Positions 219 to 59,570 of a stretch of DNA of 64,000 nt are shown in pieces (position 1 is the first letter of the stretch; every line of letters starts with the position of its first letter). The stretch is taken from positions 372,001 through 436,000 of the forward strand of contig JAUICH010000001.1 of the NCBI GenBank assembly GCA_030427505.1. Reading direction: 5' to 3'. The stretch is from Verrucomicrobiia bacterium (GTDB lineage: Bacteria; Verrucomicrobiota; Verrucomicrobiia; Verrucomicrobiales; DEV007). Under the pieces are notes generated by a model that saw only the letters and a program-made list of their open reading frames with translations, searched no databases and had not been told where the DNA came from. The position numbers and the translations under genes were made by a program.

Positions 219-3200
219 CTACTTCTCAAAATTCGGCGCTCCCGGGCTTCCGCCCGCCTCAATAAACGCCAGCAGATTCAGGATGTCTTCCTGGCTGAGG
301 GTGTTGAGCAGGCCGGGCGGCATGGGGGAGATTTTGCTGGGCTGACGGGACTGGATGTTGGCTAGGGGGACTTCGGTTCGTTGCTGGGTGGCGGCGTCGG
401 TGATGAGGGTCAGGTGATCGTCTGTTTCCTCAATCAGGCGGCCGTTGAGGGTGGTGCCGTCTTTCAGGGTGACGGAGGTGTTGTGATACTGCTCCATGAC
501 GGTTTTCGAGGGATCGAGAATGGCCTCCAAAATGTCGCGGCGGCTGAAGCGGCTGGCCACGGCGGAGAGATCGGGACCGATGGCGCCGCCTTCGTTGAAC
601 ATGCGGTGACAGGTCAGGCACATGGCATCCCGGAAAGCGGCTTTGCCTTGGGAATAGTCCCGGCCACGGGCGACTTCCTCCAGGTGAGGTTCCAACTCGG
701 CGAGGGTCCACGCTTTCACGAAGGGCCGGATCTGCGGTGCGGCGGGCGGGGCGGTTTCGAAGTTGGCGATGATGGCCTCGCCCAAGGCGGCGCGTTCCGC
801 TTCGGTGAGGGTGGCGACGGCGTCTTCTTTGAAGTTGGCGAGGTACTTGTAGAAGCTGACCCCGCCACGGTAGTTCGCGGCGGCGTGGTCGAACCAGGCG
901 AAGTACTGTTTCCGCTGTTCGAGAGTCCAGCCGAATTTCATGTTCCGCAGCACGGTAATGTAGTGAATCTCCTCTTCCTGGGTCTTCGCGTTTTCGACTA
1001 AGGCCAGGCACTTGGCAATGGTGTCAGGGTGTTCCAGGAAGACCAGGAGGCGGGCGAGTTCCCGGTTGAGATCAAAGGCATCGTCCGGCGCGGGGAAGCG
1101 GGCGTTTAACTCGTTGCCCAAAGCGGTTCGAGTTTTCGCATCCGGCGGCCCGAGACGGCTAAAGGCGACCTGGTAGGTGCGGAGGAGCGAGAGCTTTTGG
1201 GGCTTGGACAAAGCGGGCCAATCCAATCGAGAAAGCAGGGTTAACAATTCGGGCAGATCTTCCCCACTGCCCAGGCGGGCCAGGGCGAGCATGGCGGTCA
1301 GGGTGGCGTCCGGTTCTTTTGGGTCCTGCGCCAGGGCGCGTGCTTTCCATTCCTCTACCGGCCGGGTTTCGAGAGCCACGCGGGAGGCGTAGCGGAGCCA
1401 GCGGTCGCCGTCGCCTAGGTGATCCCAGGCGGTTTCGTACGTCATTTCCCGGCGCCGTTTGCGGGCTGCCGCGCCTTCGGATTCTTCAGAAGTTGAAAGA
1501 GTGGGCTCGGTCTTGTCCTTCCCGGTGTAGGTCACGCGGTAAAGGGCGGACTGGGTGTCGTTTCCGCCGGTGATGAATATCAAGGCGCCGTCGTCCGCGA
1601 AGGCGAGGTCCATGGCGTTGAGCGGTTTGCCCTCGGCGAAGATCTTAAAGTCCCCCCGGTAAGTGGCGCCGTCGGGTTCGGTGAAGACCGCGTAAATCTT
1701 CCCGTATGCCCAGTCGCACATGAGGAGGGCGTCTTTCCAGGGCTGAGGGAAGTGGCTGGCATAGGCGAACTTCACGCCGCAGGGCGAGCCGAGGCCAATG
1801 TCCGTGATCGGGGGCAGGGAGTCCGGGTAGTAGTAAGGCCACTTGCCGGTGCCTTCGCGGTGGCCGTAGTCGCCCCCTGGCACCAGGTGATAGACGCGGG
1901 TGGGGCGGTACCAGGGCAGGCCGATGTCGTACTCCATATCCGCGTCGTAGGTGAAAAGCTCGGCGTCGCGGTTGAAGGCCAGGCCGTAGGGATTTCGGAG
2001 GCCGCCGCAGACGAGTTCCCAAGTCTTCCCGTCCGGGGTGAAACGCTGGACGTGACCGCAGGGCGCCATGACGCCGCGTCCGTGCCCGGTGGCGTCCCAG
2101 CGCCGGGGGAGGAGCAGGTCTTCCGCATAGTGCTGAAAAGGGGAAGAGTCGGCCAAAGCATCCACCGGTTTCGAGTAGTCGCCCGAAACATGATAGATCC
2201 ACCCATCCGGCCCGATGGTCAGGCTGTGCGGACCGTGAGAACCGCCCCGATTGAAGACTTCCTTCAGAAATTCGGAGGTGTCGTAGCGGTCGTCCCCATC
2301 CGAGTCGGTCAGGCGGTAAATCCCCAAACCCTCCGGTCCTTCGCCCTGGACGTAAAGCGCGCCGAAGCCGTAGGCGAGCCCTTGAGCAGCGCCCACGGGC
2401 AGTTCGATCCGTTCTTCCGTGGCGATTTGGCCGTCGCCGCTGAGGGTGACGCGCAGCAGACCGCCCCATTCCTCCGAGGGCGCGTGCTGGGCACCAAGGA
2501 TGAACCGCCCCTGATCGTCCCGCGTCAGGGAGACCCAGGTGTCCTCGCCTTCCTTGGCCACGCGCAGCACCTCCGCCCGGAAACCCTCGGGCAAGGTCAG
2601 AGCGTCTCCTTCCGCCACGGCGGGTGGAGTCAGGACCTGAAACCAGGGATTGTCCCCTTCCTCCGCGACGACGAGGGCGGGTTTCCAGCCCGCGGACGCC
2701 GCGTCGAACTCCGCGGCGGCCCAGGTTTCCGTGATCTGTTTGTCATCGTCCGCCGCCCCAGTGGTCAGCCAGGTGTCATCCGAGCGAATGGTGAGGCGTT
2801 GACCATCTTCCGTGACGACTTTCAGTTCCAGGAGAAACCCGTAGGGACCGCCCCGGTTCTTCGCGGCCACAAGACAGGCATTCTCGCCGGGTTGAAGCAG
2901 AGACGCCACGTCCCGCACCTCCGCCCGGTAGCGCGGCCCGGTGGGTTCCTTGCTGCGGACGCTCAATTCGCCCAGGGATTGGCCGTTGAGAAAAACTTCC
3001 GCGGAATCGTCGGCGGCGACTTTGAGTTGGGCGCTTTCCAGTTTTCCCGGGATGTCGAAGCGCTTCCAAAGGTGGACGGCCTCTTCACCGCCCGGGGGCA
3101 GGTCCGAGTCCGTGGCGTGCCAGATCCACTTCGGAAGAGGACTGGGCGAGTCGTCAGACTGAGCGGAGACCTTTCCAGTTGTGGAAATAAAAACCAGGAC

Positions 3201-3251
3201 CAGGAAACATTGTGGCAGGACTTGACCAGCGAGGCGGGCGGCGGGTGACAT
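219..3251 (-). CDS. Secreted PVC-type heme-binding protein with beta-propeller domain
   Basis: A 1010-residue exported protein with an N-terminal signal peptide (about residues 1-30). Residues about 40-200 look like a jelly-roll/sugar-binding module (WIWHATDSD, then an LNG motif). About 220-590 resemble the glucose/sorbosone dehydrogenase-type propeller of 'membrane-bound dehydrogenase' proteins of Planctomycetes and Verrucomicrobia. About 600-850 look helical and repeat-like. The C terminus is a PVC-type heme domain with C878-L-T-C-H882, a GPDL motif and a later SPMPPGLL segment that could supply the axial Met. Such proteins are thought to work in periplasmic redox or carbohydrate oxidation, but substrates are unknown. 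It is divergent from the DUF1553 gene across 417 bp, and both encode exported heme proteins, so a shared control region is plausible. Confidence 0.85.
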   Translation of the reverse strand: MSPAARLAGQVLPQCFLVLVFISTTGKVSAQSDDSPSPLPKWIWHATDSDLPPGGEEAVHLWKRFDIPGKLESAQLKVAADDSAEVFLNGQSLGELSVRSKEPTGPRYRAEVRDVASLLQPGENACLVAAKNRGGPYGFLLELKVVTEDGQRLTIRSDDTWLTTGAADDDKQITETWAAAEFDAASAGWKPALVVAEEGDNPWFQVLTPPAVAEGDALTLPEGFRAEVLRVAKEGEDTWVSLTRDDQGRFILGAQHAPSEEWGGLLRVTLSGDGQIATEERIELPVGAAQGLAYGFGALYVQGEGPEGLGIYRLTDSDGDDRYDTSEFLKEVFNRGGSHGPHSLTIGPDGWIYHVSGDYSKPVDALADSSPFQHYAEDLLLPRRWDATGHGRGVMAPCGHVQRFTPDGKTWELVCGGLRNPYGLAFNRDAELFTYDADMEYDIGLPWYRPTRVYHLVPGGDYGHREGTGKWPYYYPDSLPPITDIGLGSPCGVKFAYASHFPQPWKDALLMCDWAYGKIYAVFTEPDGATYRGDFKIFAEGKPLNAMDLAFADDGALIFITGGNDTQSALYRVTYTGKDKTEPTLSTSEESEGAAARKRRREMTYETAWDHLGDGDRWLRYASRVALETRPVEEWKARALAQDPKEPDATLTAMLALARLGSGEDLPELLTLLSRLDWPALSKPQKLSLLRTYQVAFSRLGPPDAKTRTALGNELNARFPAPDDAFDLNRELARLLVFLEHPDTIAKCLALVENAKTQEEEIHYITVLRNMKFGWTLEQRKQYFAWFDHAAANYRGGVSFYKYLANFKEDAVATLTEAERAALGEAIIANFETAPPAAPQIRPFVKAWTLAELEPHLEEVARGRDYSQGKAAFRDAMCLTCHRMFNEGGAIGPDLSAVASRFSRRDILEAILDPSKTVMEQYHNTSVTLKDGTTLNGRLIEETDDHLTLITDAATQQRTEVPLANIQSRQPSKISPMPPGLLNTLSQEDILNLLAFIEAGGSPGAPNFEK

Positions 3252-3668
3252 GGGGGTAGTCGTGAGAGGTTCGGGGGTCTTTTAACAGACAACGGCACCC
3301 CAGCGCTCGCTCGGAATTTGAGTCCGGGAATTAAGCCGGGCAGGTCTTTCCCTTCTCCCGAAGACTGCACGGGGGCTCCAATATTCCGAACGTCCCTTTC
3401 TGAGAACGCGTCTAACCAGAGTGAAAGGGGATTTCCGCAAATTGTGGGGGAGGGTCTTTTCCCGTAAGATCGGGCGATTTCGGGAGTTACGTCATTGCGC
3501 GGCTTTATTTGGCTCCTGAAAACGTGGTAAATTAACATGACCAAGCCCCGAGACTGGTCAGGGGAGTTGCAAATTTCGTAATTTCCCTTCCCCCGAGACA
3601 TTTCCTTTCACAAAGGCCGTCGCGCCTTTCCGAAAAATATCCCTGCCTAGCCCACCTAGCTACTCCAC
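3252..3668. promoter_or_regulatory. Divergent intergenic region between two exported heme-protein genes
   Basis: No gene is visible in these 417 bp. The stretch lies between two divergent starts and becomes AT-rich around 3500-3640, where promoters for the right-hand gene would be expected. No confident -35/-10 pair or operator was recognised. Confidence 0.4.
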
Positions 3669-6600
3669 ATGACGACGATAGAGGTCCCCCGATTCCTTCG
3701 CCTTCCCACCCTTTGCGCGGCCGCCACTGGTCTGTCGCTGAGCGCCGCGTTTTTCCTGACGGCCCCACTTTCATCCGCCGCCGAAGGTGATGGAAAGATG
3801 GCCAAAGAAGGCAGCACCGAGATAAAAAAGGTCAGTTACTGGGAAGAAGTGCGGCCCGTGCTCCAGGCGAAATGCCAGGGCTGTCACCAGCCGGCCAAGT
3901 CCAAAGGCGGCTACATCATGACCGAGGTCGCGAAGCTGATCGCCGGGGGCGAAACGGACAAAGCCGTTGTCCCGCACGAGCCGGACAAGAGTTTCCTCGT
4001 CGAGCTGACGACGCCGGTGGATGGCGAGGTGGAAATGCCTCCCAAGGGCGACGCGCTGACCGAAGCCGAGCTTCACTTGGTGCGCCAGTGGATCGCCGAG
4101 GGCGCGGTGGACGACACGCCGGACAATGCCCGGCAGCAGTTCGACATGAATCACCCGCCGAAGTACGCCGTGGCGCCGGTGATCACCTCCATGGACTTTT
4201 CCCCGGACGGCAAGCTGCTCGCGGTGTCCGGTTTCCACGAAGTGCTCCTGCACAAGGCGGACGGTTCCGGCCTGGTGGCCCGGCTGGTCGGCCTTTCCGA
4301 GCGCATTGAAAGTGTCCGCTTCTCTCCGGACGGCAAATCGCTGGCCGTGACCGGTGGCCTGCCCGCCCGGATGGGGGAAGTACAGATCTGGGACGTGGCG
4401 AAGAAGGAGCTGACGCTCTCCAAGCCCGTGGGCTACGACACCGCCTACGGCGCCAGCTGGTCGCCGGATGGAAAACTGGTCGCCTTTGGCCAGCCGGACA
4501 AGACCGTGCGTGCCATCAATGCCTCCAGTGGCGAGCAAGTCCTCTTCATGGGCGGTCACGATGACTGGGTACTGGACACGGTTTTCTCCGTGAAGGGCGA
4601 TCACCTCGTCTCCGTCGGCCGCGATATGGCGGCAAAATTGACCAAGGTGGAGACCGAACGCTTCATGGACAACATCACGTCCATTACGCCCGGCGCCCTC
4701 CGCGGCGGACTGCTGGCGATCGACCGTCACCCCGGGAAAGACGAGATCCTTATCGGGGGCGCGGACGGCGTGCCGCAGATCTACCGCATGTATCGCGAAA
4801 CCGCCCGGCGCATTGGGGACAACGCGAACCTGATCCGCAAGTTCCCCGCCATGAAAGGCCGCATCTGGGGCGTGGCCTACAGCCCGGATGGAAAGCAGAT
4901 CGTGGCCGCCAGCAGCCTGGACGGGAAAGGTTATGTGAACATCTACTCCGCGGACTTCGACAGCGCCCTGCCGGAGATCGTGAAAACCGCTTTCGGCAAG
5001 GTTGCCACCACCCGTACCGCTGAAGAAGTGAAAGCGGTGGAGGAGTATTCCACGAAAGACGTGAAGCTCATCGCGGGCCTGGAGTTCCCCGAAAGCCGGG
5101 GCATTTACTCCGTGGCCTACAGCCCGGACGGAAAGACCATCGTCGTGGGCGGCGCGGACGGACAAGTGCGCTTCCTGAATGCCGCGGACGGTAAGCTGGC
5201 CAAGGCCATGACGCCCGTGACCGTGGATGGAGGCAAAGCCATGGCTAAGCGCGATGCCAAGCCGGTGAAGCTGGATGAAGGAACCGCCGACCGCAGCGAT
5301 CCGCTGCCGAAAGGCGATCCGGTGGTGGCCCTGGACGTGGTGCCGAAGACCATCGATTTGTCCGCGCCGAACGCCTACAACCAGCTCGTCGTGACGGCTC
5401 AACTCAAATCCGGCGCGAAGACGGATGCCACGCGGAACGTGAAATGGGAGCAGGCCACGCCGCTGCTGGAGATCAGCCGCCGGGGCATCGCCAAGCCGGT
5501 GAAAGAGGGTGAAGCCGTACTGATCGCCGCCCTGGGCGACATCAAGACGGAAGTGCCGGTCAAAATCAGCGGTCTAAACCAGGAATTTCACCCGGACTTT
5601 GTGCGCGATGTGAACCCCGTCATTTCCAAGCTTGGCTGTAACGCTGGTACTTGCCACGGGGCCAAAGACGGGAAGGAAGGGTTCAAGCTTTCCCTGCGCG
5701 GCTACGATCCGATCTTCGACGTGCGCGCCTTTGGCGACGACCACGCCGCCCGCCGCGTAAACTACGCCTCTCCCGACGACAGCCTGATGCTGCTGAAAGC
5801 CACCGCCGCCGTGCCTCACGAGGGCGGTCAGGTGACCAAGCCGCACTCCGAGTACTACGACATCGTCCGCCAGTGGATCTCCAATGGAACGATGCTGGAT
5901 CTCACCACGCCGAAGGTGAAGCAGATCGAGCTGTTTCCCAAGAACCCCGTGCTCCAGCGGATCGGGGAGCGTCAGCAGATCCGCGTGGTCGCTACCTACG
6001 CCGATGGGGCGAAGCGCGATGTGACGGCGGAAGCCTTTGTGGAAAGCGGCAACCTGGAAGTCGCCACCCATGACAAGTCCTGCCTCATCACCACCATCCG
6101 CCGCGGTGAAGCGCCCGTGCTGGCCCGGTATGAAGGCGCCTACGCGGCTACCACGGTCACCGTGATGGGCAAACGGGACGGCTTTACCTGGACCGAGCAA
6201 CCCGAGTGGAACCCGGTGGACAAGTTCGTCGCCAATAAGTGGCAGCGCATGAAGATCCTGCCTTCCGGGCTGTGCACGGATGAGGAATTTCTCCGCCGCA
6301 TATATCTGGACCTGACTGGCCTGCCGCCGAGCGCGGATCAGGTGCGCGCCTTCGTGGCCGATAAACAGGAAACCCGTCAGAAGCGGGACGCCGTGGTGGA
6401 CAAGCTGATCGGCTCGCCGGAGTTCGTGGACCACTGGACCAACAAGTGGTGCGACCTGCTCCAGGTGAACAGTAAGTTCCTGGGGAAAGAGGGGGCCGAA
6501 GGTTTCCGTACCTGGATCAAGAACCATGTGGAGAAGAACACGCCGTATGACGAGTTCGTGTATTCCATTGTGGATGCCTCCGGCTCGAACGCGGACAACC

Positions 6601-8849
6601 CGGCGGCCTCATACTACAAGATCCTTCGCACCCCGGAAGAGCTGGTGGAAAACACGACCCACCTTTTCCTGGCCACGCGCTTCAACTGTAACAAGTGCCA
6701 CGACCATCCCTTCGAGCGGTGGACGCAGGACCAGTACTACGAGACTGCCGCCTACTTTGCCCGGGTGGATCTGAAGACCGATAACAAGAACAGCGCTGGC
6801 AAGAAGATTGGCGGCACGGCGGTGGAAGGCGCGAAACCGCTTTACGAGATTGTGTCCGATAAAGCGGAGGGCGAAGTGAAGCACGACCGCACCGGAGAGA
6901 TTGCCGCGCCCGAGTTTCCCTACCCGGTGAAGTTTGAAGAGCCGAAAGAAGACACCCGCCGCGCCGAACTGGCCGCCTGGATCACCAGCCCGGACAACCA
7001 GTATTTCGCGATGAGCTACGCCAACCGCCTGTGGGGCTACCTCATCGGCACGGGAGTCATCGAGCCTCTGGACGACATCCGCGCCGGTAACCCGCCGAGC
7101 AATCCGGAACTGTTGAACTGGCTGACCAGCGAGTTCGTTAATTCCGGCTTCGACGCGCGGCACGTCATGCGCCTCATTTGCAAGAGCCGCACCTATCAGT
7201 TGTCCGTGGCGAGCAATGAATGGAACGAGGACGACACCATCAACTTCTCTCACGCCAAGGCTCGCCGCCTGCCGGCGGAGGTGCTCTTCGATGCCGTGTA
7301 TGCCTCTACCGGTTCCGTGCCGAATATCCCCGGCGCCAAGCCCGGCATGCGCGCCGCGCAGTTGGCGGATTCTCAGACCGACCTGGCGAGTGGCTTCCTG
7401 GCTGGCTTGGGCCGGCCTCCACGGGAAAGCGCCTGCGAATGCGAGCGCAGCAACGACGTGCAACTTGGCAACGTGATGTCGCTGCTCAGCGGCCCGACCA
7501 TCGCCGACGCGGTGGGCGATGAGAAGAACGCCATCGCCAAGCTGGTGAAGCAGCAGCCCGACGACAAGAAACTGGTGGAGGAAATCTTCCTCCGCATCCT
7601 GAATCGCAAACCTTCCGAAGCCGAAGTGAAGGCCGCGCTGGAAAGCATGTCTCAGATCGAGGAAGACCATATGCTGCTGGTTGCTTCGCTTGCCAAGAAA
7701 GAAGGGGAGTGGGTGCCGGTCCGCGCCGAGCGCGAGCGGAACCGTCTCATCGCCATCGACAAGGCCACCGCTGATATCGCGGCTTACCAGCCCGAGCACG
7801 ACAAAAAGGTGAAGGAAGCCGAGGCCGCGCAGAAGACGCGTATCGCCGAGGCGGATGCCGTGCTGAAGAAGTATGAGGAGCAACTGCCGGGCCTCGCCCA
7901 GGCGTGGGAGAAAGAGCTGAAGTTGGATCGCCTTTGGACCACTTGGCAGCCGCTCATGCCGAAAGACGTGAAGGCAAGCAAAGCCTACGAGGCCAAGACC
8001 CTGGAGAATGGCGCCGTCCTGATCAGCGGCCAGCCGGCTAACAACGCCGACTACGTCGTGACCATTCCCGCCAGCCAGAAAAATATTACCGGTCTTATGG
8101 TGGAAGCCCTTCCGCACGATGACCTTCCTGGCTTTGGACCGGGCATCAATCCGAACGGAAACTTCGTGGTCTCCGAAATAGAGCTTCAGTACAAAGACGC
8201 CGGCGATCCGAAGGCCAAGGCCGTGAAAGCGAAGTTTGTCAAAGCCGAGGCGGACTTCAATCAGAGCAGCTTCGACGTGAAGCGCGTCATCGATGGCGAC
8301 GTGGCCCGGAACAACAAGGCCTGGGCCGTTGGGGGTAAAGAGAAGAACCCGCATTGGGCCCGGCTTCAGCTCGACAAGCCCATCGCCTTCGAGAAGGGCG
8401 CCGAGCTGACGGTGACCATTCGCTGCCGCTACAGCAATGGCGATTACCCGCTGGGACACTTCCGCCTCTGGATGACGGATTCCGCGCAACCGCTGAACCT
8501 CGGCCTGCCGGAAGCCGTGGCCGCCGCGATGAAGGTGGCTCCGGAAGCGCGGAGCGCCGAGCAGAAGCAGGCCCTGGTGGCTTACTACCGCGATCAAGAC
8601 AACGAGTATCTGAAGCGTCGCCATGCGCTGGCTGGCGAAAAGCGGCCCTTGCCCGCCGACCCGAAGATGGTCGGCCTGAAAGGCGCCTTGGCGAAGGCCG
8701 AACGGCCCATTCAGCAGGACGGCCAGTTGCTGCAACTCCGTAAGGATGTGGACATGAGCATCCAGCAGTCAGCCAACCGCCGCCTGACCGCCGCGCAGGA
8801 CTTGACTTGGGCGCTCATCAATTCACCGGCCTTCCTGTTCAATCACTAG
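3669..8849 (+). CDS. Secreted cytochrome c / WD40 / DUF1549-DUF1553 protein
   Basis: A 1726-residue exported protein. After a signal peptide (about 1-38) comes a planctomycete-type cytochrome motif C69-Q-G-C-H73, then a WD40-like propeller (about 150-500; repeated FSPDGK or YSPDGK blades). A second heme-like motif C657-N-A-G-T-C-H663 has three residues between its cysteines. An Ig-like stretch (about 710-830) follows, then DUF1549 (about 850-1050) with a third motif C1007-N-K-C-H1011, then DUF1553 (about 1100-1250; ELAAWITS, NRLWGYLIG). The tail (about 1290-1726) has a charged, probably coiled-coil part and a possible carbohydrate-binding domain. DUF1549/DUF1553 proteins are abundant in Planctomycetes and Verrucomicrobia and poorly characterised. 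The DUF1501 gene follows after 172 bp, the usual pairing. Confidence 0.9.
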   Translation: MTTIEVPRFLRLPTLCAAATGLSLSAAFFLTAPLSSAAEGDGKMAKEGSTEIKKVSYWEEVRPVLQAKCQGCHQPAKSKGGYIMTEVAKLIAGGETDKAVVPHEPDKSFLVELTTPVDGEVEMPPKGDALTEAELHLVRQWIAEGAVDDTPDNARQQFDMNHPPKYAVAPVITSMDFSPDGKLLAVSGFHEVLLHKADGSGLVARLVGLSERIESVRFSPDGKSLAVTGGLPARMGEVQIWDVAKKELTLSKPVGYDTAYGASWSPDGKLVAFGQPDKTVRAINASSGEQVLFMGGHDDWVLDTVFSVKGDHLVSVGRDMAAKLTKVETERFMDNITSITPGALRGGLLAIDRHPGKDEILIGGADGVPQIYRMYRETARRIGDNANLIRKFPAMKGRIWGVAYSPDGKQIVAASSLDGKGYVNIYSADFDSALPEIVKTAFGKVATTRTAEEVKAVEEYSTKDVKLIAGLEFPESRGIYSVAYSPDGKTIVVGGADGQVRFLNAADGKLAKAMTPVTVDGGKAMAKRDAKPVKLDEGTADRSDPLPKGDPVVALDVVPKTIDLSAPNAYNQLVVTAQLKSGAKTDATRNVKWEQATPLLEISRRGIAKPVKEGEAVLIAALGDIKTEVPVKISGLNQEFHPDFVRDVNPVISKLGCNAGTCHGAKDGKEGFKLSLRGYDPIFDVRAFGDDHAARRVNYASPDDSLMLLKATAAVPHEGGQVTKPHSEYYDIVRQWISNGTMLDLTTPKVKQIELFPKNPVLQRIGERQQIRVVATYADGAKRDVTAEAFVESGNLEVATHDKSCLITTIRRGEAPVLARYEGAYAATTVTVMGKRDGFTWTEQPEWNPVDKFVANKWQRMKILPSGLCTDEEFLRRIYLDLTGLPPSADQVRAFVADKQETRQKRDAVVDKLIGSPEFVDHWTNKWCDLLQVNSKFLGKEGAEGFRTWIKNHVEKNTPYDEFVYSIVDASGSNADNPAASYYKILRTPEELVENTTHLFLATRFNCNKCHDHPFERWTQDQYYETAAYFARVDLKTDNKNSAGKKIGGTAVEGAKPLYEIVSDKAEGEVKHDRTGEIAAPEFPYPVKFEEPKEDTRRAELAAWITSPDNQYFAMSYANRLWGYLIGTGVIEPLDDIRAGNPPSNPELLNWLTSEFVNSGFDARHVMRLICKSRTYQLSVASNEWNEDDTINFSHAKARRLPAEVLFDAVYASTGSVPNIPGAKPGMRAAQLADSQTDLASGFLAGLGRPPRESACECERSNDVQLGNVMSLLSGPTIADAVGDEKNAIAKLVKQQPDDKKLVEEIFLRILNRKPSEAEVKAALESMSQIEEDHMLLVASLAKKEGEWVPVRAERERNRLIAIDKATADIAAYQPEHDKKVKEAEAAQKTRIAEADAVLKKYEEQLPGLAQAWEKELKLDRLWTTWQPLMPKDVKASKAYEAKTLENGAVLISGQPANNADYVVTIPASQKNITGLMVEALPHDDLPGFGPGINPNGNFVVSEIELQYKDAGDPKAKAVKAKFVKAEADFNQSSFDVKRVIDGDVARNNKAWAVGGKEKNPHWARLQLDKPIAFEKGAELTVTIRCRYSNGDYPLGHFRLWMTDSAQPLNLGLPEAVAAAMKVAPEARSAEQKQALVAYYRDQDNEYLKRRHALAGEKRPLPADPKMVGLKGALAKAERPIQQDGQLLQLRKDVDMSIQQSANRRLTAAQDLTWALINSPAFLFNH

Positions 8850-44824: not shown

Positions 44825-46042
44825 ATGATAGAATTCTTTCGGCGTCTCTTCGAAACCGAAGGGTTTCCCCCTAGGTGGAATTGCGGGACGGCCTGGTCTG
44901 AGACGCCCGCGTTGGGTTGGCTTCACATTGTTTCCGATCTGGTCATCGCCACGGCGTACTTCGCGATTCCCGTGCTGCTTGGCTACCTTGCCATCAGGAA
45001 GAACAAAGACATGCCGTTCATCCCTCTCTACTGGTTGTTTGCCGCCTTTATTCTCAGTTGCGGCACAGTACACTTGGTAGAAGCTATTTTGTTCTGGGAT
45101 CCGATCTACCGGTTTTCGGGTCTGGTGAAGGTCATTACCGCGGTGGTATCCGTGACTGCCGTCATCGTATTAGCTCCTTCGCTACCTAGGATGCTGGCAT
45201 TGCCGGGTTTGCTGGCGGTGAAAAAGCAACTCAATGAAGAGACGGACCACCGCAGGGAAACAGAAAACCGGCTGAGAGTCATCTTTCAGTCCGCCAGCGA
45301 TGGTCTTTGGGAATGGAATGTTGCGAAGGACCGGCTGTGGTATTCGGATCAATTTTTGAGAATCTTGGGACTTAGAGAAGAGGAAGCGCCCGTGATGTTG
45401 GAGCGGTTCCTGACACGCTTGGTTCACCCGGAGGATATCGTGGCTACCCGGGAAATGCTGGAGAAGCATCTCAAGGGCGACACGCCGTATGACATCGAGC
45501 ACCGGCTGAGACACAAGGACGGCTACTACCTTTGGCTGCACTGCACGGGGCGGTGCGTCAGAGATGAAGAAGGAAAACCGCTCTACATGGGTGGCTACAT
45601 AAAGGATCTGACGGACAAAAGGCAGCAGGAGCAGCGGTTTCAGGCGGTCTTCGAACAGGCGGCCGTCGGAATCGCCCGCGTCAGCCCCTCGGGAGACTGG
45701 CTGGAGGTGAATCAAAAGATCTGCGATATCGTCGGGTATTCCCGAGAAGAATTGATGGCGCTGACGTTTCAGGAAATCACTCATCCTGAAGACTTGGATA
45801 AGGACCTGAAGTTGTATCAGCAACTGAAGGCGGGAAAGATAAAGAACTACTCCATGCGGAAACGCTACTACCACAAGACTGGGCGAATCGTGTGGATCAA
45901 TCTGACCGTGAGCCTGGTCCGCAACAGCGAAGGCGTGCCACTCTACGCGGTGTCCGTCGTGGAAGATATCACGGAAAAGATACAACTGGAAATGCTGGCG
46001 GGAATGGCGCCGGAACCGAACGATTCGGGATTTTCGGTGTGA
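44825..46042 (+). CDS. Ethylene-receptor-like membrane sensor with two PAS domains, no kinase
   Basis: A 405-residue protein. The first 130 residues form three membrane helices matching the ethylene-binding domain of plant ETR1 and cyanobacterial homologues. All seven residues known to matter in ETR1 align with the same spacing: D38, Y45, I48, P49, I76, and the copper ligands C79 and H83 (ETR1 D25, Y32, I35, P36, I62, C65, H69). After a linker come two PAS/PAC domains (about 155-265 and 280-395; ending YIKDLTDKR and VVEDITEKI). There is no GAF, kinase or receiver domain, so output must pass through a partner. TTG 44777 is in frame upstream, but ATG 44825 is better. It converges with the MFS pseudogene. 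Confidence 0.85.
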
Positions 46043-46052
46043 ACCGTGAGTT

Positions 46053-47513
46053 TCAGTCCGGTGTGTTTTTCCCGTGGTGGGGAATGTCAGAGTTTGGCTG
46101 ATCGGTTTCCAGGTTCATGGGCAACCCCGAGGCGGAGGCAGCCGCCAGATCGCTCAGGTCCACTGCATCGGCGGGGGCGAGTTTCTCGGCGGCTTCCGCT
46201 GTTTCCACTCCTCGCCGCAGATTGACCAGGAGCCATAGCAGAACCATTCCAATGACGAAGAAGAGCGTGAGGATCGTGAGGGAAGAGACCGATCCCAAGC
46301 GCGAACGGATGGCGCCAAAAACCGGCAGGCCAATGACGCCGGCCATCTTGTAAACCAGCCCCCACAGGCCGAAAAACTCCGCCGAACGGTGGCTGGGGGT
46401 AAAGACGCCCACGGAGGCTCGCGTGGCGGTCCCCAGTCCCCCCAGTCCCGCTCCGATGCCCAGGCCCACCAGCCAGACGGGTCAGACCGGGAAGCTTTCT
46501 GGATTCGCGGAAATAGACCGCAAGTGGGTGATGAGAGTCAGGCCCAGGCAGGTGACCGTCCAAATGACAAGGAAAGCGGTGAGCGTCGTCTTATGGCCGA
46601 TACGGTCCTGGATGAAACTCGTGGAAATGGCGCCGGCCCCCGCGGCCAGGGTGACCACGGCGGAGAAGACGAGGATCTTCAGCGTGTCGAATCCGAAATC
46701 GTCCTGCGCGATGACCCCGGCAAAGAAGATCACTACCTGCATGCCCATGGCATAGACCAGAAAGGCGATCAGCAGTCCGGAGAGATCGCGGAAGGAACTT
46801 ACTTCGCGGACGGTTTTGACCGTGCACCGGACGGCTTCCTTGACCACCGAGACTTGGCCCGCGTTTTTTGCGCGTTGCTTCTTCTCCGGCAGGAAGAGGG
46901 CGGTGGGGGTCATCATGAGGGCGAACCAGGCGCCCGCGAAGAACAGGATGGGGCGGAAATCTTTCGGGCCGTCCAAGCCAAAGATCAGGCTGGCGATAAC
47001 CACCGAAACCAGCAGAATCAGCGCGCCCACGTAGCCCATGGTCCAGCCAATGGCGGAGATGCGGCCCATCGTTTCCCGCCGAGAGATCTCCGGCAGGAAT
47101 GAAGCCAGGATGTTTTCCCCCACATTGAAGCAAATATTGGCCGGCACATAGACCAGCACCGCCACGGTCAGCGCCGTACGGATTCCGACGGAGGCGGATG
47201 CGGGGAGAAAGGCCAGGCAAGCAGTGAGCACGGCGCAGCAAATCCCCGTGGTGATCAGGATGCGCTTCTTGGCTGCATACACATCCGCCAGTGCCCCGAT
47301 GATCGGTGCCGTCAGCGCCACGATGGCTAAGCTGACCGAGCCCATGAGAGACCAGGCAAGGTCTCCATCTTGGTGGCCGCCCACGATCACCTCTTTCAAA
47401 AAGAGGGAAAAGAGCAGCGTATTGATGAGCAGGGTAAAGGACTGGTTGGCCAGGTCAAACATGCCCCAGGCCCAAACCTGCTTCTTATTTTCGATGCCTT
47501 TAAAAGGATTCAA
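46053..47513 (-). pseudogene. MFS transporter of the UMF1/Atg22-like group, split by an in-frame TGA
   Basis: The reading frame encodes a 486-residue transporter in one frame except for TGA at codon 344 (46482-46484). The first part has the UMF1-type start VWAWGMFDLANQSFTLLINT and about nine helices. The second part continues in the same frame with VWLVGLGIGAGLGGLGTATRASVGVFTP and SAEFFGLWGLVYKMAG, exactly what follows in this family. There is no frameshift or deletion, so a single base change separates it from an intact gene. Options: true nonsense mutation, sequencing error, or read-through. The substrate is unknown. Confidence 0.85.
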
Positions 47514-57893: not shown

Positions 57894-59570
57894 TTGTGTA
57901 AAATTAAGGCATCTTCGGGAAACTTATTCCCAATACCAGCTTTTCGACTCGTGGCCGAGCATTACCTAAGACGTGAGCTCTATGAGCGCTTTTCTCGAGA
58001 GCCAGCCATTTTTGACTTCCTTCAGGCGGGGTCTTTGGACGGGGTCTGGTACTGGGACATTGAGAATCCAGAATCGGAGTGGTTGAGTCCCCGGTTCAAA
58101 GAGCTTTTCGGATTCGAAGATCACGAGATGCCAAACACCACGGAGTGGTGGCAAAAGAACATTCATCCTGACGATTTGCAGGTCGTCATCGAAAACTTCC
58201 ACAAGCACTGCGAGAATCCCGACCATCCCTATGACCAGATCGTCCGCTACCGGCACCGGAACGGTTCGACGGTCTGGGTGCGCTGCCGGGGAATCGCCAT
58301 CCGCGACGAGACTGGGCGCGCGATCCGGATGCTCGGAGCGCATACGGACATTACGGCTTTGAAGGAAGCCGAAGCACGAATTCAGGAAAATCAGGAAAAG
58401 CTGAGAAAAGTTCTGCTCAGCCTGACCAAAGCCCAGCAAAATCTGGTGGAGGTGGAAAGACTCAAGGCTTTGGGCCAGTTGAGCAGTGGGGTGGCCCACG
58501 AACTCAACAATATCCTAATCAAGCTACTAAGCAAGATAGAGTTGTCGAAGCATGACCATCCGGACTTGAGAGAAGACTTCGCGGTCATGCAGTCACTGGC
58601 CGTGGAAGGCGGAAAAGTACTGGGGCGGATGCGCCACTTCCACGCCAGGCGCACCGTGCCGGATTCCTACCAGGCGGTGCCTTTGCTTCCTCTGGTGGCG
58701 GAGACGGTAGAAATTACCAAACCCAAGTGGAAGAGCGAGTTGGAGATGGAAGGCACCCATCTGGACATGCGGGTTTCGATCGACCCCGATCTGGCCGTGA
58801 TGGGAGATCCCGCCCAACTGAGAGAGGTCTTCACGAATCTCGTCTTCAATGCCTGCGACGCGTTGGAGGGGCAGGGGGCAATCGTGATAACGGCGGATGA
58901 AGTCGAGGAGGTGGTGAGTATCCAGGTTGAGGACAACGGCTCGGGAATGAGCGCGGAGACGTTGAGCCAGTGTACGGAACCCCTTTACACCACCCGCGCC
59001 GCCGATCGCAGTGGGTTGGGATTGTCTCTCGCGAAGGGGATTGCGCTGAGTTGTGGGGGAGATTTGACGGTCGAATCCGAACTGGGACAGGGTACCCGTG
59101 TCACCGTCAGGCTGCCAGCAGCCAAGATGCCGCAGTCTCCCGTGACCGTTCCTCCGGCATCGATGGATCCGGAGGCCATGCCACTCAAGTCCGTAAGGGT
59201 GCTGCTGGTGGACGATGAATTCATGGTGACGGAGATTGTCGGTCAGCTCCTGCGCATCAGCGGTTTCGAGTGTGAAGCGGTGAACACAGGCGCGGAAGCC
59301 CTGGCGCTGCTGGAGACGAAGGCCTTCGATGTCGTGGTGACGGACCGGTCCATGCCAGGAATAAATGGCGACGAGTTAGCCCTGCACGTCAGCCGAAATT
59401 TTTCCACTATTCCGGTGATCATGGCTACCGGCTATGGTGAGATCATGAAAGCCAATCGGGAAGTGCCTGAAGGCGTCGCCCTGGTATTGCCCAAGCCGTT
59501 TACCAACGAAGCCCTGCGGGACGCGATCCACACCGTGGCGAGGGAGTCGGGTGTCGCTCTTACGGCCTAG
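57894..59570 (+). CDS. Hybrid PAS histidine kinase with receiver domain
   Basis: A 558-residue cytoplasmic sensor protein. A PAS domain (about 43-160; DGVWYWDIENPE, HPDDLQVVIE, GAHTDITALKEAE) leads through a coiled coil to the H box SSGVAHELNNIL with candidate phospho-accepting H202. The ATPase has an N box (LVFNACDAL), VEDNGSGM and GLGLSLAKGI. A C-terminal receiver (about 432-550) has DDE, phospho-acceptor D484 in TDRSMPG and the Lys in LPKPF. No membrane helix. The start is uncertain: TTG 57894, or GTG 57951 which removes 19 residues and keeps the whole PAS. No response regulator is adjacent. Confidence 0.85.
   Translation: MCKIKASSGNLFPIPAFRLVAEHYLRRELYERFSREPAIFDFLQAGSLDGVWYWDIENPESEWLSPRFKELFGFEDHEMPNTTEWWQKNIHPDDLQVVIENFHKHCENPDHPYDQIVRYRHRNGSTVWVRCRGIAIRDETGRAIRMLGAHTDITALKEAEARIQENQEKLRKVLLSLTKAQQNLVEVERLKALGQLSSGVAHELNNILIKLLSKIELSKHDHPDLREDFAVMQSLAVEGGKVLGRMRHFHARRTVPDSYQAVPLLPLVAETVEITKPKWKSELEMEGTHLDMRVSIDPDLAVMGDPAQLREVFTNLVFNACDALEGQGAIVITADEVEEVVSIQVEDNGSGMSAETLSQCTEPLYTTRAADRSGLGLSLAKGIALSCGGDLTVESELGQGTRVTVRLPAAKMPQSPVTVPPASMDPEAMPLKSVRVLLVDDEFMVTEIVGQLLRISGFECEAVNTGAEALALLETKAFDVVVTDRSMPGINGDELALHVSRNFSTIPVIMATGYGEIMKANREVPEGVALVLPKPFTNEALRDAIHTVARESGVALTA

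Follow-up and report, generated by a model that had tools for sequence, protein, structure and literature searches.

Analysis of a 64,000-nucleotide stretch of the genome of a Verrucomicrobiia bacterium (here called the window) identified a gene whose product, as judged from its sequence, carries a three-helix domain of the ETR1 type with every residue that ETR1 requires, followed by two PAS domains and a stop. With a probability of about one half, this protein (P0001, the window protein) is considered to sit in the membrane as a true sensor of ethylene or a small alkene like it and, lacking an enzymatic part, to act in trans. The gene and its features are as follows (EBD, ethylene-binding domain):

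44825..46042, + strand: CDS of a kinase-less ethylene-receptor-like sensor (EBD-PAS-PAS), 405 aa (ORF and Pfam)
44906..44998, + strand: predicted membrane helix 1, residues 28-58, with D38, Y45, I48 and P49 (AlphaFold model and alignment)
44912..45202, + strand: ETR1_N ethylene-binding domain, residues 30-126 (Pfam PF25487, E 5.7e-32; ETR1 alignment)
45020..45088, + strand: predicted membrane helix 2, residues 66-88, with I76, C79 and H83 (AlphaFold model and alignment)
45059..45061, + strand: codon for C79, a predicted ligand of copper (C65 in ETR1); all 71 aligned proteins have Cys here
45071..45073, + strand: codon for H83, a predicted ligand of copper (H69 in ETR1); 70 of the 71 aligned proteins have His here
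45107..45196, + strand: predicted membrane helix 3, residues 95-124, with K102 (ETR1 K91) (AlphaFold model and alignment)
45338..45598, + strand: PAS domain 1 (PAS_3), residues 172-258 (Pfam)
45635..45970, + strand: PAS domain 2 (PAS), residues 271-382 (Pfam, profile positions 2-113 of 113)
45995..46042, + strand: 15-residue tail and stop; three examined PAS2 relatives continue into further domains here

The frame given in a first-pass annotation of the sequence, from an ATG at 44825 to a stop at 46042, was borne out, and its start is backed by aligned relatives whose N-termini begin alike. It is unbroken over 405 codons and the functional residues are kept. The codon-position G+C values of 0.56/0.37/0.69 are close to those of two EBD-kinases encoded in the same genome (0.57/0.43/0.72 and 0.58/0.42/0.69), so that relative to these paralogues no sign of decay or foreign composition was seen. 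A foreign origin had been considered, the gene having a G+C content of 54% against 60% for the window, yet this idea was dropped as the EBD-kinase paralogues (56-58%) deviate likewise. Scanning for promoters and terminators returned no promoter-like and one terminator-like site, which is not above shuffled sequences (means of 1.0 and 1.7). The genome also carries ACACCTACGGGTGGCAGC, the 16S rRNA site recognized by the Verrucomicrobiota probe EUB338-III; the assignment of the bacterium to the PVC group, and probably to the Verrucomicrobiota, is based solely on this signature.

The ETR1_N family (PF25487) matched the window protein with 110.3 bits against a curated cut-off of 27, and at an E-value of 5.7e-32 this match is not due to chance. 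Alignment with residues 1-130 of ETR1 gave 32% identity and placed all seven ethylene-binding residues at the positions named in the first-pass annotation: D38, Y45, I48, P49, I76, C79 and H83 pair with D25, Y32, I35, P36, I62, C65 and H69 of ETR1. In addition, K102 aligns with Lys91 of ETR1 (K91), a residue linked by modelling to D25 and to the output of the receptor (PMC11819568). Conservation was analyzed in an alignment of 71 proteins (A1), in which P0001 was combined with 70 EBD proteins out of the 75 collected up to that point; L080, which is the window itself, and the divergent or N-terminally incomplete L123, L124, L193 and L194 were omitted. Cys79 is present in all 71 proteins, followed by His83 and Tyr45 (70 each), Ile48 (69), Ile76 (67), Asp38 and Lys102 (66 each) and Pro49 (58). 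All seven binding residues occur together in 51 proteins, the window protein included, and at least one is missing in the other 20.

An AlphaFold model contains three helices (residues 28-58, 66-88 and 95-124) with block pLDDT values of 86-98 across the EBD. D38, Y45, I48 and P49 are located in predicted helix 1, and C79 and H83 both fall in predicted helix 2; the earlier placing of the Cys/His pair in the second and third helices is therefore wrong. ETR1 C65 likewise lies in helix 2 and, since the same holds for H69, the slip leaves the claim of an ethylene-binding domain standing. The helix 2 position of H69 is given in PMC11819568. The comparison with ETR1 and the aligned relatives supports an intact predicted copper site in the window protein. 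At E <= 10 no solved structure matches the EBD by sequence. The 50 entries listed in a PDB fold search were PAS-containing with low TM-scores and included no EBD fold match; the low scores go with the poor PAS part of the model, which in turn results from the limit of at most 160 residues on the other rows of the input alignment.

The description of the protein as an EBD joined to two PAS domains and then stopping was likewise verified. Pfam assigned these domains and returned no HisKA or HATPase_c match in the window protein at E <= 1. Reading of the three frames downstream of the stop revealed no kinase-like sequence, and loss of a kinase to a frameshift was rejected. The transporter gene on the opposite strand ends 10 bases past the stop at 46042. 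Three PAS2 homologues (L023, L128 and L135), which share 36-50% identity over the best stretch, all run on into further domains, the kinase part being identified by Pfam in L128 and by reading in L023 and L135.

The genes surrounding the sensor gene include a peroxiredoxin-like gene (named by reading), an aconitase gene 309 bases upstream on the same strand, the downstream transporter gene on the opposite strand and a sulfatase gene. According to the ORF list and the Pfam analysis of the window, no kinase or receiver gene adjoins 44825-46042. The ATG22/MFS transporter (46053-47513, - strand) contains a frame break near 46470-46485 that separates an N part (46482-47513) from a C part (46053-46469), and it represents either a pseudogene or a sequencing error. 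The hybrid kinase at 57894 had been guessed to be a partner of the sensor. This partnership was discarded, as the kinase is 12 kb away, resembles the window protein detectably in the PAS part alone (32% over residues 133-278) and has no other support. For the genes in between, Pfam names a transporter, a sulfatase, a xylose-isomerase-like protein, PEP carboxykinase, a cytochrome c, a PQQ_2 protein and a DUF2959 protein, with one tested ORF giving no match.

The genome encodes three ETR1_N proteins, namely the window protein and two kinases of the layout EBD-HisKA-HATPase_c. One kinase is located on contig C48 (L087, 3788-5366, - strand), where a receiver-domain gene overlaps its 3' end, and the other on contig C11 (L083, 4923-6107, + strand). 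A transposase-like ORF, named by reading, is found just upstream of the L087 kinase gene. The sensor halves of the two kinases are 49 and 57% identical to that of the window protein; the C11 kinase has a Ser at the position of P49, a residue present there in 11 of the 71 aligned proteins. Among the matches listed in a search of genome contigs with the whole protein, all begin at query residue 116 or later and no EBD relative is named.

Within the order, 43 of 386 genomes had an ETR1_N match, which in 40 of them exceeded the cut-off; for the phylum, 24 of 387 genomes had a match and 23 exceeded the cut-off, these two genome sets overlapping. Matches were also obtained in the cyanobacterial phylum (64 of 244 genomes), in the phylum of a gammaproteobacterial genome (28 of 398) and in that of a Brocadia genome (20 of 199), while 14 control genomes gave zero matches in every one of the order and phylum searches. 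These counts mark the domain as an ordinary known bacterial family. The searches of the window's own order and phylum gave 57 proteins that exceed the cut-off, and at least one kinase box was detected by pattern in 51 of them. The six without such a box are the window protein, L071, L090, L118, L123 and L069; L118 is a HisKA_2 kinase by Pfam, and L123 has a divergent EBD, a sub-threshold HisKA and a receiver, with no HATPase_c. A search for the same domain order in other Verrucomicrobiota, as the first-pass annotation had proposed, yielded no second certain case: EBD-PAS-PAS-stop was seen once among the 57 proteins. L069, the closest EBD in A1 (63% identity, 65% over 109 residues), runs off the edge of its contig and may or may not have this layout. 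A whole-protein search of 74 genomes of the window's family at E <= 1e-15 gave no other full-length match. With no relative of the same full layout found, nothing shows that selection maintains it.

Kinase-less EBD proteins beside separate signalling genes were detected at six other loci, two in the window's family (L071 and L090), two from the Planctomycetota search (L242 and L243) and two in the cyanobacterial phylum (L178 and L179). Pfam identifies a kinase in five of the six neighbours, and the neighbour of L243 is cut within a PAS domain by the contig end. In L071 (locus 3923-6596), the EBD protein of 187 aa overlaps a hybrid-kinase ORF. The gene for the L090 EBD protein of 195 aa (locus 2712-6604) has a receiver-kinase gene on one side and a PAS-kinase gene on the other, with a receiver gene coming after the latter. 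L242 and L243 (reverse strand) are arranged similarly, L242 being followed by a PAS-HisKA-HATPase_c gene. The EBD proteins of L071, L242 and L243 are 55-63% identical to that of L090, and all four share a tail with the consensus REDRVIELKREVNELLxELGRxPRY. The N-termini of their neighbours are hydrophobic (by reading) and have in common S-P-x-G, an Arg and S-x-x-E-D-L-R. These four pairs are candidate split ethylene receptors. L178 and L179, which adjoin kinase genes, have an Asn at the D38 position, and L179 retains just the Tyr, Cys and His of the seven residues, which makes ethylene binding doubtful for both.

The window gene has no directly adjacent kinase gene of the kind that characterizes the split pairs, and a tail of the REDRVIELKREVNELLxELGRxPRY type is absent from P0001 by reading. 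A search of the window's genome for the partner-kinase N-terminus, run without a positive control, gave no match at E <= 1; such an empty result has no evidential value by itself, and within the scope of this search the window protein does not appear to be a member of a split pair. In the EBD tree (83 of 90 sequences; L123, L124, L193, L194, L239, L247 and L248 omitted), the six split proteins need three changes, at least two of them forced by the starred branches; since 252 of 500 shuffles reach the same value, it is not unusually low and the split EBDs are not claimed to cluster. Other outputs were found in genomes of the cyanobacterial phylum, where L181 is an EBD-GGDEF and L183 an EBD-SpoIIE protein by Pfam, and L177 adjoins a GGDEF piece. 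From this phylum 18 of 161 matches were fetched, as were 8 of 31 and 7 of 25 from the phyla of the gammaproteobacterial and Brocadia genomes, all picked for short frames, and the kinase-less counts in these phyla are therefore not rates. By reading, L241 (reverse strand) is an EBD-PAS-kinase split by a frame break before the kinase part, which cautions against calling short EBD frames kinase-less unchecked.

Plant ethylene receptors combine the EBD with a GAF domain and a kinase, with or without a receiver, whereas the window protein has PAS-PAS only. It shares with plant ETR1/ERS the three-helix domain, the seven residues and the lysine corresponding to K91, at 32% identity. The GAF and kinase layout of ERS is described in PMC6682694. 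Among bacterial receptors, AzoEtr1 of Azospirillum brasilense likewise keeps the seven residues in its EBD and continues into PAS; in contrast to the window protein with its two PAS domains, it has a single PAS before a histidine kinase, and a response regulator is encoded immediately downstream (PMC11819568). SynEtr1 (slr1212), GeiEtr1 and GeiEtr2 share the N-terminal EBD and GeiEtr2 also a PAS, but their remaining domains differ from the PAS-PAS of the window protein, being a cyanobacteriochrome and kinase in SynEtr1, GAF and kinase in GeiEtr1, and PAS, GAF and receiver in GeiEtr2 (PMC6682694). Ethylene receptor kinases of the ETR1, SynEtr1 and AzoEtr1 type carry on the same chain a histidine kinase or a kinase domain derived from it, which the window protein lacks. 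The six split EBD proteins resemble it in having no kinase of their own; unlike it, they end in a coil (with the common tail in L071, L090, L242 and L243) and are encoded immediately ahead of a signalling gene. L181 and L183 are also without a histidine kinase, but have another enzyme domain on the same chain. A literature search of limited coverage found neither the EBD-PAS-PAS-stop layout nor split pairs of sensor and kinase described, and no paper on EBD with GGDEF or on EBD with Planctomycetes; judging by the titles listed, none concerns ethylene receptors in Verrucomicrobia. Bacterial proteins of this family whose outputs depart from the plant layout have already been published (PMC7700396).

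If the window protein is a trans-acting sensor, Cu(I) held by C79 and H83 would bind ethylene, and the resulting change would travel via helix 3 with K102 and a linker helix to the PAS pair. The latter would offer a surface for contacts with other proteins and might also serve as a second sensor, and the output would come from another protein, either one of the genome's two EBD-kinases via mixed dimers or a kinase whose gene lies elsewhere. GST fusions of the EBD fragments 1-130 from AzoEtr1 and SynEtr1 bind ethylene (PMC11819568 and PMC6682694), which indicates that binding is independent of the kinase. That the window protein may form mixed dimers with the two EBD-kinases is an attractive idea, given that plant receptors dimerize and that heterodimers have been considered possible (PMC3485614). 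The gene pairs of an EBD and a kinase in relatives provide a precedent for placing sensing and catalysis on separate chains. The absence of any relative with the same full layout among those searched, the lack of an adjacent kinase or receiver gene, the lack of the split-EBD tail and the continuation of the PAS2 homologues count against a sensor acting in trans.

The main and serious rival, which we regard as rather unlikely, is a truncated relic: a rearrangement would have removed the 3' end of a gene for an EBD-PAS-PAS-kinase or a hybrid kinase, leaving a protein that is inactive or acts only as a decoy by taking up ethylene or poisoning dimers. The single occurrence of the layout fits a relic, as do the three PAS2 homologues that continue into further domains, the frame break in the adjoining transporter gene and the EBD tree, which groups the window protein weakly (90/53) with L096, an EBD-PAS-HisKA-HATPase-receiver protein. 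Yet no downstream frame holds a kinase remnant by reading, the 405-codon frame is intact with its functional residues kept, and the composition is near that of the EBD-kinase paralogues. An assembly or frame error that conceals a gene running on into a kinase is very improbable: the broken transporter ORF and the frame break in the relative L241 speak for it, but no kinase-like frame follows the stop and the opposite-strand gene ends 10 bases on. It is also improbable that the domain, though sound, has a signal other than ethylene (CO, a different alkene or copper itself) and binds ethylene as a side ligand. For this organism neither a source of ethylene nor a response to it is known, and the named surrounding genes (peroxiredoxin-like, aconitase, transporter and sulfatase) do not point to ethylene; against this, the window protein keeps all seven binding residues, of which 20 of the 71 aligned proteins miss at least one, and the EBDs of AzoEtr1 and SynEtr1 do bind ethylene according to the reports cited above.

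Beyond the window protein as a trans-acting sensor, a broader and doubtful idea is that bacterial ethylene receptors may consist of separate polypeptides, in which a stand-alone EBD drives a membrane kinase; the window protein would then be an orphan of this kind, and its tandem PAS domains would modulate the two EBD-kinases or some other kinase. A separate EBD subunit would offer a small and tractable target for structural work. If the sensor reading is true, ethylene sensing would extend to a group for which the searched literature holds no such report, the gas-binding unit need not be fused to a kinase, and bacterial ethylene sensing may make use of separate proteins.
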